In this document: one piece after another, positions 38,307 through 40,643 of the stretch | Layout: each line of letters opens with the position of its first letter | Position numbering within the stretch: position 1 is the stretch's first letter | From: Terriglobia bacterium | GTDB lineage: Bacteria; Acidobacteriota; Terriglobia; Bryobacterales; Bryobacteraceae | Direction: 5' to 3' | Length of the DNA stretch: 58,356 nucleotides | Assembly: GCA_020073345.1 (NCBI GenBank) | Contig: JAIQFI010000041.1 | Span: 1 to 58,356, forward strand | Translations under genes and position numbers: made by a program | The notes under the pieces: generated by a model | Seen by the model: the letters and a program-made list of their open reading frames with translations, nothing else | Databases searched by the model: none | Told to the model about the DNA's origin: nothing

Positions 38307-38383
38307 GGGCCCTTAGCTCAGTCGGTTAGAGCAGCGGACTCATAATCCGTTGGTCGATGGTTCGAGTCCATCAGGGCCCACCA
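38307..38383 (+). tRNA. tRNA with CAU anticodon (tRNA-Met elongator or tRNA-Ile2)
   Basis: 77 nt including an encoded CCA end. The acceptor stem GGGCCCT pairs with AGGGCCC. The D loop has AGCTCAGTCGGTTAGAGC, the anticodon stem GCGGA/TCCGT has loop CTCATAA (anticodon CAU at 38341-38343), and the T arm GATGGTTCGAGTCCATC is standard. The run around the anticodon is close to E. coli ileX (Ile, C34 changed to lysidine by TilS) as well as to elongator Met; the sequence alone does not settle which. Its 3' half is repeated at 40417-40461. Confidence 0.95.
38339..38383 (+). repeat. Left copy of the 45-bp tRNA-derived repeat (att-like)
   Basis: The 3' half of the tRNA from the anticodon loop to CCA. 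It matches 40417-40461 at 44 of 45 positions (T at 38354 versus C at 40432). Identity stops abruptly on both sides. This is the classic pattern left by an integrase that uses a tRNA 3' end as its target. Confidence 0.85.
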
Positions 38384-38385
38384 CG

Positions 38386-38533
38386 TTTTCAATAGCTTGC
38401 GAGTCGGCTCACCTTGCTCGGCTCGCTGGCTGTGCTTGCGCCCGCGGCGCCTCTACAGCGCTGAGAGACAGATCCGGGGTAGCGTGATCGTTCGCCGGCT
38501 GCGATCGCACTTCGTCGACAGCGGCCGCCATGA
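38386..38533 (-). pseudogene. Tyrosine-recombinase (integrase) remnant
   Basis: On the minus strand a short reading frame gives WRPLSTKCDRSRRTITLP followed by RICLSAL, a stop (TAG), then RRRGRKHSQRAEQGEPTRK. This resembles the stretch of phage-type integrases where a basic SRRTIxLP segment precedes a helix rich in Arg and Gln. No catalytic R-H-R-Y block remains, so it is a decayed piece. Lying next to the tRNA, inside the duplicated ends, is where an integrase gene is expected. The call rests on a short similarity recognised by eye. Confidence 0.4.
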
Positions 38534-38626
38534 GAGAGCGATCTCCCGTCCACGATCATGGTGAATCTTCCAACACTGTATCGGCGGTAGACGGCGAAGC
38601 TAAAGGCTGAGACGCCGTATACCAGC

Positions 38627-38776
38627 TCACACGTTTCCTTTCTGGGCGGCCTGGTGCCGATCGTAGTCGGCTGTGGCCTGATCTACAAGCCGCTTTGCTA
38701 CATCGTGGGCGGTTTGTTCGGGGTCTGGATCAGTCGGATCATCGCCGCGTGGAATCAAAGTGACCTTCGTGCTCAC
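38627..38776 (-). CDS. Small hypothetical protein, 49 aa, in the tRNA islet
   Basis: A GTG-started frame on the minus strand with a strong GGAGGAG ribosome binding site (38782-38788) 5 bases before the start. The product is acidic at the N-terminus (PRGDDPTDPDPEQ) and helical and charged towards the end (AHDVAKRLVDQATADYDRHQ). It shows no known domain. It lies between the integrase remnant and the cargo gene, on the opposite strand to the cargo. Not recognised. Confidence 0.5.
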   Translation of the reverse strand: MSTKVTLIPRGDDPTDPDPEQTAHDVAKRLVDQATADYDRHQAAQKGNV

Positions 38777-38919
38777 CAGTACTCCTCCGGTTTGCCGGTT
38801 GTCGGGAGGATCCCCTTTGGGACATGAGATTTGTCACCAAATATTGATTTGACCGCACTCCTCTCTTCCCGTACGCTAATTTTTTGTGGCATTCGAACTC
38901 GTCAGGAGGAAATTGTTTC

Positions 38920-40335
38920 GTGAAGAGAATCGGCGTCCCTATTCCGCTCTTTGCCTTGACTCTTGGACTATTTACCGCAGCGCACTCTCAGGCCCAGCCC
39001 ACTCTACTGGCCGTCGGCACACTCGATCATTCGCGTGCCGGCGCTAACGCCGATCTTTCCGGTCTCACGTACACGCTTGAGAACGGTGCGCCTGCGAATT
39101 TGCTCGGCGGTTTAGGTTCCGGACTCGCCTACGCGTCTGGCAATACTTTCCTCGCGCTACCCGACCGCGGCCCGAACGCCACGTCTTTCAACTCGGCCAT
39201 CGATGATACGGTCAGTTACATCAATCGATTCCATACCATCACCATGGACCTGGACCCCAACACAAGCGGTTCAGGTCTGCCGTATACGTTGACCCCCACG
39301 CTGCGTGACACAACCCTGCTGTGGAACTTTCTGATCCCGCTGACTTATGGCACCGGGAGCGGCCTTGGCGCGGGTTCCGGTGTCCCGCCGAGCAACAACT
39401 TTGTCCAGCATTTCTTCACCGGACGCTCCGACAACTACGATCCCCACCACAACTCCGGCGATCCCTTGGATGCCCGTTTCGACACGGAAGGCATTCGCGT
39501 CTCCAACGATGGGTTGAGCGTGTTCATTTCCGACGAGTACGGTCCCTATGTTTATCAGTTCAGCCGGTTCACCGGAGCGCGTATCCGCTCGTACAAGTTG
39601 CCTGATTTCTTTTATGTATCCAACCTGCACCCGGTAGGATCAGTTGAGATCAGCGACAACATCTCCGGCCGGACTGCCAACAAAGGCATGGAAGGTCTGG
39701 CCATCACGCCCGATGGCCGCACGTTAGTCGGCATCATGCAGACCGCGCTGATACAGGATGCCCATCTGGGTGGCAATGCCGCCAATCTGCTGCGCATCGT
39801 TACTATCGATATCCTAACCGGGCAAACTCACCAATACGCCTACCTGCTCACCGCCGGCTCAGGGGTCAGCGAAATATGCGCCATTAACAATCACGAATTC
39901 CTAGTCGATGAGCGGGACGGCAAAGGACTTGAGGGAGGCGACGGCGCGACCAGCAACAAGGCCGTGGTGAAACAACTCTTCAAGATTGACCTGGCCGGCG
40001 CGGTTGACATCAGCTCCATGGACGGAACCACCGCGGCGACGCACGCGGTCAGCAAGACACTCTTCCTGGATATCGTTTCGGTGCTCACCGGAAACGGCAT
40101 CGCGGCCAAACAGATTCCGTCCAAGATCGAAGGCGTCGCGTTTGGCCCGGATATCAAGCAGGGACACACAACTCTGCACACCTTATGGGTTTCCAACGAC
40201 AATGACTTCCTGCTGACCACCGGAGACACGCCTCCGCTTCCAAATCCCAACCAGTTCTTCGTCTTCGGCGTCACCGACGCCGACTTGGGCGGCTCTCAAT
40301 TCGTGCCCCAGCAGTTCCATGGTTTCGGCAGATGA
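38920..40335 (+). CDS. Secreted phytase-like esterase-family protein
   Basis: Exported protein of about 471 aa. The start is the GTG at 38920, 9 bases after AGGAGGA (38904-38910). A TTG reading from 38884 is less likely. The signal peptide ends near AHSQAQ. The sequence reads like the 'esterase-like activity of phytase' family (PF13449): LTYTLENGAPANLLGGLGSGLAY, LALPDRGPNA, DTEGIRVSNDGLSVFISDEYGPYVYQF, NKGMEGLAITPDGRTLVGIMQ and NNHEFLVDERDGKG are its usual segments. A beta-propeller phosphoesterase or binding protein is inferred. This is the cargo of the tRNA islet. Confidence 0.85.
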   Translation: MKRIGVPIPLFALTLGLFTAAHSQAQPTLLAVGTLDHSRAGANADLSGLTYTLENGAPANLLGGLGSGLAYASGNTFLALPDRGPNATSFNSAIDDTVSYINRFHTITMDLDPNTSGSGLPYTLTPTLRDTTLLWNFLIPLTYGTGSGLGAGSGVPPSNNFVQHFFTGRSDNYDPHHNSGDPLDARFDTEGIRVSNDGLSVFISDEYGPYVYQFSRFTGARIRSYKLPDFFYVSNLHPVGSVEISDNISGRTANKGMEGLAITPDGRTLVGIMQTALIQDAHLGGNAANLLRIVTIDILTGQTHQYAYLLTAGSGVSEICAINNHEFLVDERDGKGLEGGDGATSNKAVVKQLFKIDLAGAVDISSMDGTTAATHAVSKTLFLDIVSVLTGNGIAAKQIPSKIEGVAFGPDIKQGHTTLHTLWVSNDNDFLLTTGDTPPLPNPNQFFVFGVTDADLGGSQFVPQQFHGFGR

Positions 40336-40643
40336 ATAAAAGATCCGACATCAAGAGGGGTGCTTAACGGAGAATCGATAGACGCCTATGGAAGCAGTGG
40401 CGAGGTGGCTATGGCGCTCATAATCCGTTGGCCGATGGTTCGAGTCCATCAGGGCCCACCAAAACCCCGCTTTAGTTAGTAGCTTGCCGAGGCTCGCGGC
40501 GCCGGAACGGCCCGTGACCTGCCAGACACTATTCAACACTCCGGGAACGGCCCTTGCGGATCGGAGTCGCGATGGCCGCCCCAGAGTGACCTCATCGCGA
40601 GGCGGTATTGGAGTTTCGTCGTGGAAACGAATTCGGTTCCTGA
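40336..40643 (+). other. Gene-poor stretch with the tRNA fragment
   Basis: Holds the 45-bp tRNA copy (40417-40461) and no convincing gene. A 62-codon minus-strand frame here (40351-40539) only reads through the antisense of the tRNA piece, giving the WALMDSNHRPTDYE string known as an artefact of antisense tRNA translation. After the repeat, TAGCTTGC recurs as it does after the intact tRNA. Confidence 0.6.
40417..40461 (+). repeat. Right copy of the tRNA-derived repeat (partial tRNA)
   Basis: A 3'-half tRNA fragment from the anticodon loop to CCA, matching 38339-38383 at 44 of 45 positions. The 5' half has no tRNA-like sequence, so it cannot make a tRNA. The distance between copies is 2,078 bp. 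Confidence 0.85.

Follow-up and report, generated by a model that had tools for sequence, protein, structure and literature searches.

A short islet behind the tRNA(CAU) gene of the window is very probably an element that integrated site-specifically into this tRNA gene and now persists as a CIME-like cargo islet without a recognisable integrase. The window is the whole stretch of DNA that was analysed (58,356 bp), and the positions of the islet and of its parts are collected in Table 1. The left boundary is formed by the intact tRNA and the right boundary by a displaced copy of its 3' half.

Table 1. Features of the tRNA(CAU) islet (positions in the window)
Feature	Position	Strand	Basis or remark
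Intact tRNA(CAU), left boundary of islet	38307..38383	+	ARAGORN, Rfam
Core CTCATAATC, in and beside the anticodon loop, putative crossover region	38339..38347	+	Common to displaced 5' and 3' halves of relatives
Islet body, 2,033 bp inner length	38384..40416	.	Interval separating both copies
Arm-like motif TTCAATAGCTTGCGAG, 16 bp, 4 bp past CCA, putative integrase arm site	38388..38403	+	Profile
Shine-Dalgarno-like AGGAGG ahead of GTG 38920	38904..38909	+	Sequence
Phytase-like cargo gene (PF13449), 471 aa if the start is GTG 38920; frame open from TTG 38884	38920..40335	+	
Displaced tRNA 3' half, right boundary of islet	40417..40461	+	One change vs intact copy

The only tRNA gene of the window was called as Met by ARAGORN and scored 75.3 bits as an Rfam tRNA; from its likeness to such sequences it is presumably tRNA-Ile2, the minor isoleucine tRNA. 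Its last 45 bases, from the anticodon loop to the CCA, were found again with 44 of 45 identical and a start-to-start distance of 2,078 bp, as the original prediction had stated. This repeat is far above chance: without gaps, the second-best site for the 45-mer anywhere in the window reached 25/45, and shuffling the letters of the window five times gave 24 to 27 of 45. The edges were also exact as predicted, with no extension beyond the tRNA: identity ends before CTCATAAT, where the preceding bases of the two copies differ, and after the CCA, where they differ again. The fragment lies in the same orientation as the intact tRNA and on its proper side, as in a tRNA-targeted island. The single mismatch is located in the displaced copy (T is present at that position in every intact copy compared), which fits relaxed selection on that copy. 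A frame at 40351-40539 on the minus strand runs antisense to the displaced piece (WALMDSNHRPTDYE); reading frames antisense to tRNA pieces are readily misannotated as proteins.

The window is a single contig (G000:C98) of a draft genome of 6.23 Mb in 98 contigs, and an assembly error that merged two tRNA-bearing regions would be conceivable in such a draft. This was nevertheless judged extremely improbable, because a tRNA of full identity was present only at this locus among the seven matches in the genome, the two copies are not quite identical (one base differs), and the same layout was observed in other genomes.

An integrase was not found in the islet by any of three approaches. The open stretches of its left part (six in one Pfam scan and three in another) matched no family, tblastn with 38384-38900 translated in six frames gave, against the collected loci, a best E value of only 0.011, and a profile of 33 integrases, applied to six-frame stretches of at least 25 residues, gave no match up to E 10. 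The islet therefore lacks the integrase of its own that a tRNA-targeted genomic island of the tyrosine integrase type would carry, and the decayed integrase piece originally proposed was not recovered. The small ORF described there as well translated (38654-38827) had no match in Pfam or PHROGs and is unsupported as a gene; the stretch 38404-38880 contains no recognisable gene. Transfer genes were sought through the Pfam scans of stretches, and the only family found in the islet was PF13449.

This PF13449 match (E 4.4e-53) is the sole recognisable gene of the islet and bears out the phytase-like gene of the original prediction. The description of its product as secreted corresponds to a signal-like N-terminus as read from the sequence, and translation probably starts at the GTG preceded by AGGAGG. 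The closest relatives found for the protein were in a Candidatus Solibacter MAG (74%), followed by Acidobacteriaceae and other groups (35 loci). The comparison with the Solibacter copy (dN 0.15, dS 1.04, 461 codons) points to purifying selection between the two genes; gene acquisition in Candidatus Solibacter is a subject of PMC3174227. The protein was found in three of 61 genomes (the own genome and 60 relatives), namely the own genome, G006 (48%) and G053 (30%, partial length). With the islet DNA as the query, and at most a few candidates scored per genome, all 61 genomes gave matches, and among the matches listed these were through the tRNA sequence, with G006 alone reaching the islet interior in a piece of the phytase-like gene. 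The sole PHROGs match of the cargo protein was phrog_9280 (function unknown, E 4e-20) and no PADLOC model was matched, so that the packaging or phage-interference genes of a phage satellite were not seen. Relatives of the phytase-like protein were not confirmed in viral contigs and were not found among PDB sequences. At 18 loci with phytase-like genes elsewhere, the only tRNAs nearby were a Trp and a Ser tRNA, each thousands of bases off, and five integrase queries at E 1e-6 gave no match in L077 and L152-L186.

The base and codon composition, proposed earlier as a check, gave a divided result. The GC content of the islet (57.3%) was lower than that of window stretches of equal length (60.4% +/- 1.5), and only 0.4% of such stretches outside the region had a GC content below that of the islet. 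The tetranucleotides, in contrast, were ordinary (45% of stretches were equally far or farther from the mean), as was the codon usage (eighth least typical among 32 genes), and neither gave a sign of foreignness.

Displaced halves of the same tRNA were observed in many relatives. The search for the 3'-half pattern covered 257 genomes of the order, 14 of which were scanned twice, and displaced 3' halves of tRNA(CAU) were found in at least 15 (G000, G003, G008, G081, G140, G161, G189, G197, G199, G204, G209, G221, G235, G238 and G256). Displaced 5' halves were found in at least nine of the 257 (G010, G013, G015, G030, G069, G071, G082, G104 and G138). Both counts are lower bounds because genomes with a single match were unchecked for lone halves. 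Extra matches that were other tRNAs (Met- or Lys-like by reading) were dropped from the 3'-half count, as were G108 and G215 with two intact copies each. G104 (halves on two contigs, one 3' half seen) and G001 (an internal piece) stand outside the 15, and the nine do not include G009, whose half lies at the end of a contig, nor G254 and G255, which gave two matches each. The 5' and 3' displaced halves overlap in CTCATAATC, the anticodon loop plus two bases, which indicates that elements enter the tRNA from both sides; the core carries one change in G204 and in G104. The overlap is the putative crossover region. G015 has an intact tRNA(CAU) whose 5' half is of a different type from the displaced 5' half on another contig (L054 4500-4573 and L062 1202-1241), as though an element had swapped out half of the tRNA.

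Ten islands at tRNA(CAU) were complete, with both ends on one contig, islands split over contigs being left out of the ten. Complete integrases were present in four (G013, G081, G189 and G204; 5.7-9.1 kb) according to the profile, with Pfam in agreement; these four match the profile by construction, since all four integrases were built into it. The islet of G209 (1,946 bp) contains a 112-aa C-terminal integrase piece (Pfam E 3.9e-16), and the remaining five, namely the islets of the window, G003, G140, G030 and G069 (1.6-3.0 kb), were free of integrase by the profile. Two integrases encoded in the own genome share 51% and 47% identity with the integrase of the G189 island, and they lie beside tRNA-Lys and tRNA-Val.

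For a sister islet, that of G003 (L043 8507-10539), an exact empty site is present in G002. Here 987 bp, beginning at the first base past the CCA, correspond at 89.9% to the DNA behind the displaced half of G003, and the G003 islet sequence itself had no match within the G002 stretch. The G003 islet is 2,033 bp, equal to that of the window; the contents are unrelated and the identical lengths are probably a coincidence. An empty site was not found for the window islet itself, no relative sharing both flanks being located; across the genus (23 genomes), no listed match other than the own one spanned the tRNA piece as well as the DNA that follows it. The nearest relatives by the proteins compared (G018, G019 and G020) have different DNA immediately next to the tRNA; in G019, 4 bp separate the tRNA from the gene that corresponds to the one at 43497-44663. 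The scanned stretches behind the tRNA of G018, G019 and G020 gave best matches of 21, 18 and 24 of 45, respectively, which is the chance level for tRNA relics.

The block 40528-43449, with its Ysc84 and OmpA-like genes, is on other contigs and not next to this tRNA in the same three genomes, so the locus was also rearranged in other ways. This variability in close relatives speaks to some degree for an ordinary local duplication or a random rearrangement that copied part of the tRNA. Such an origin is, however, highly improbable, because the edges of the repeat fall at the anticodon loop and the CCA as in the other islands with displaced 3' halves, the repeat continues beyond the CCA in G081 and G189 and not in the window, and the sister islet of G003 has a precise empty site.

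The motif at the left end of the islet is probably an integrase arm site, as judged from its similarity and placement among related elements. In a direct comparison, 14 of 17 positions agreed both with the G081 flank and with the reversed G013 flank, a level attained by 3 of 1,500 random stretches. A profile built from ten other elements, with the window left out, gave the motif a score of 21.8, the top of the window on both strands (next 13.3) and reached by none of about 19,200 random 45-mers, a score that is not fully independent because the motif was first spotted by comparing the window islet with G081 and G013. Of the 95 flanks scored at 48 tRNA sites, 15 had p<0.01 compared to 0.95 expected, of which ten were training sites and five independent. 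On the 3' side the motif lies 4-5 bases past the CCA (15 in one case). The 5' flanks carry it in reverse, 10-12 bases ahead of the tRNA in seven of nine and directly adjoining in two. By hand arithmetic, the common spacings put approximately 45-46 bases between the motif and the anticodon centre on both sides, an arrangement expected of mirror-image attachment sites.

A strong motif (score of at least 18) was present at the tRNA-side end in only five of the ten complete islands (window, G081, G189, G013 and G030), the scores being below 7 at this end in G003, G204, G140, G209 and G069. In G003 and G140, an arm-like motif was instead observed 41-42 bp ahead of the displaced half (10.4 and 13.9, respectively) and was absent from the tRNA-side end. 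With respect to the attL and attR of a CIME, the window islet has both tRNA-derived ends, the left one with the arm-like motif, and a search for a distal arm site gave nothing above noise (best 6.0). The sequence TAGCTTGC does occur behind both copies as originally noted, and belongs to a clear motif only behind the first. The flank of the second copy (p ~0.026, other spacing) weakly hints at the suggestion that related elements inserted here more than once; a third tRNA piece, expected of a tandem insertion, was not found, the best matches being at chance level (25/45 in the window, and 14/22 with the last 22 bases as the query against 40462-43520).

The exact motif pattern was observed seven times in the own genome, and at five of these places it adjoins a tRNA, whole or as a 3' piece, namely in the window and at tRNA-Val(GAC), tRNA-Glu and two tRNA-Val(CAC) pieces. 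The latter two appear by reading to be displaced halves, one of them being called as tRNA-Val by ARAGORN. When one mismatch was allowed the contrast was weaker, with 23 matches compared to 11 for the reversed control. The exact pattern occurred 35 times in 23 genomes of the genus and seven times for the reversed control. Other genomes accounted for 28 of these places, of which 27 were examined: eight had an ARAGORN tRNA at a distance of at most 15 bp (one being a training site; approximately 0.1% expected per place), one more was at 16 bp, four more adjoined tRNA 3' pieces by reading, and 14 were away from any tRNA. Alternatively to an arm site, the motif may be a host element behind tRNAs, since it also lies behind intact tRNAs other than those searched for displaced halves.

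Two further arrangements were observed in the own genome. The two tRNA-Val(CAC) 3' pieces on contig C43 (G000:C43:66702-66750 and a stretch ending at C43:111482; L216 and L217) are each followed by the motif, and together with the tRNA-Val(CAC) at C43:22394-22470 (L005) they lie on one contig at intervals of about 44 kb, possibly as tandem large islands. In L210 (G000:C21), the tRNA-Val(GAC) at 1953-2029 has an integrase gene on either side, with the motif reversed ahead of it and a variant, identified by eye, 5 bases past its CCA.

The following mechanism is proposed for the islet. A tyrosine integrase would have made the crossover within the anticodon loop, by which the element entered the tRNA(CAU) gene and the whole 3' half was exchanged. 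The new 3' half would have been brought by the element, so that the tRNA remained whole, and the old 3' half would have been displaced to the far end, where it began to drift. The arm-like site and one intact cargo gene (phytase-like) would have been kept, the integrase being either lost or never carried. Since no recognisable integrase is encoded, the islet could move only if another element provided the integrase. The origin as an integrative element at a tRNA 3' end, as originally proposed, is well supported by the displaced halves, the integrase-bearing relatives, the sister empty site and the arm-like motif. The element may also have shrunk later as proposed, although no integrase remnant was found.

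The integration reading can accordingly take two versions. In the first, to which about an even chance is given, a larger integrase-bearing element was eroded in place, losing the integrase and other genes by deletion until the ends and the cargo were left. The description of CIMEs in the available text of PMC5704250 is of this kind, the G209 islet with its integrase piece would be an intermediate of the expected kind, and the stretch without a recognisable gene in the left part of the window islet is consistent with such loss; against it, no trace of an integrase was observed in any of the five integrase-free islets. In the second, which is plausible at somewhat below an even chance, att-ended cassettes without an integrase arrived as units, moved by an integrase acting in trans. 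This would agree with the fact that half of the complete islands are small and without integrase trace, with the compact G140 islet of two long open frames, with the arm-like motifs ahead of the displaced halves in G003 and G140, and with the similarity of the two resident integrases to that of G189. It is opposed by the finding that no second copy of the islet was present in the own genome or, among the matches listed, in relatives, and by the position of the resident integrases beside other tRNAs, for which reason their core specificity may not fit. Loss was slightly favoured over arrival because of the CIME description in PMC5704250 and the intermediate-like G209 islet.

A broader reading is put forward tentatively and is rather unlikely to hold in full. 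It proposes that a single tRNA is used, within this bacterial family, by elements of two mirror-image kinds, which enter at the anticodon loop from the 5' or the 3' side, that many of them share an arm-site motif also used at other tRNAs, and that a large share are integrase-free cassettes moved in trans by the integrases of other elements. Searches that require an integrase overlook such islets, which make up five of the ten complete islands at tRNA(CAU). The motif common to integrase-bearing elements may help to find them and to tie them to candidate mover integrases, and by this link the question of whether they are decayed or moved in trans becomes testable.

Compared to known systems, the islet resembles the Islander-type islands, in which an intact tRNA and a displaced fragment mark the ends; in the available text of PMC4383910, 2,083 of 3,919 such islands were anticodon centred, 3,760 had a 3' fragment and 159 a 5' fragment. 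The Islander search described there differs in that it requires a length of 2 kb or more and the presence of an integrase gene; as the islet has no recognisable integrase, it would be missed. The use of a 5' half is known from those 159 islands and from the pTN3-like elements of archaea (PMC8371274), and tRNA-Ile2 is mentioned together with integrases in PMC10865867 and PMC10111431; among the literature matches listed, no title dealt with elements that use this tRNA in the bacterial group concerned. Like the CIMEs, as PMC5704250 describes them in the text available, the islet has putative att sites and no recognisable integration or transfer genes, whereas CIMEs are decayed ICEs or IMEs that often adjoin another element, and neither an element nor a relic was noticed beside the islet in the window. 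The islands at tRNA or tmRNA genes in the accessible part of PMC12595487, one of them moved by a jumbo phage, likewise have direct repeats at the target gene and no transfer genes of their own, but they encode their own tyrosine integrase. At ssrA of Dehalococcoides, fifteen islands without an integration module are reported in the part of PMC3146451 that was available, and these share their target with integrase-bearing islands as the window islet does; they differ in the tmRNA target (T-loop), the CcrB-related integrase and the tandem arrangement. Anticodon-centred tRNA islands are thus common and module-free islands at a shared target are already known, as far as the available texts of PMC4383910 and PMC3146451 indicate, and the family context of the window islet is unusually clear.
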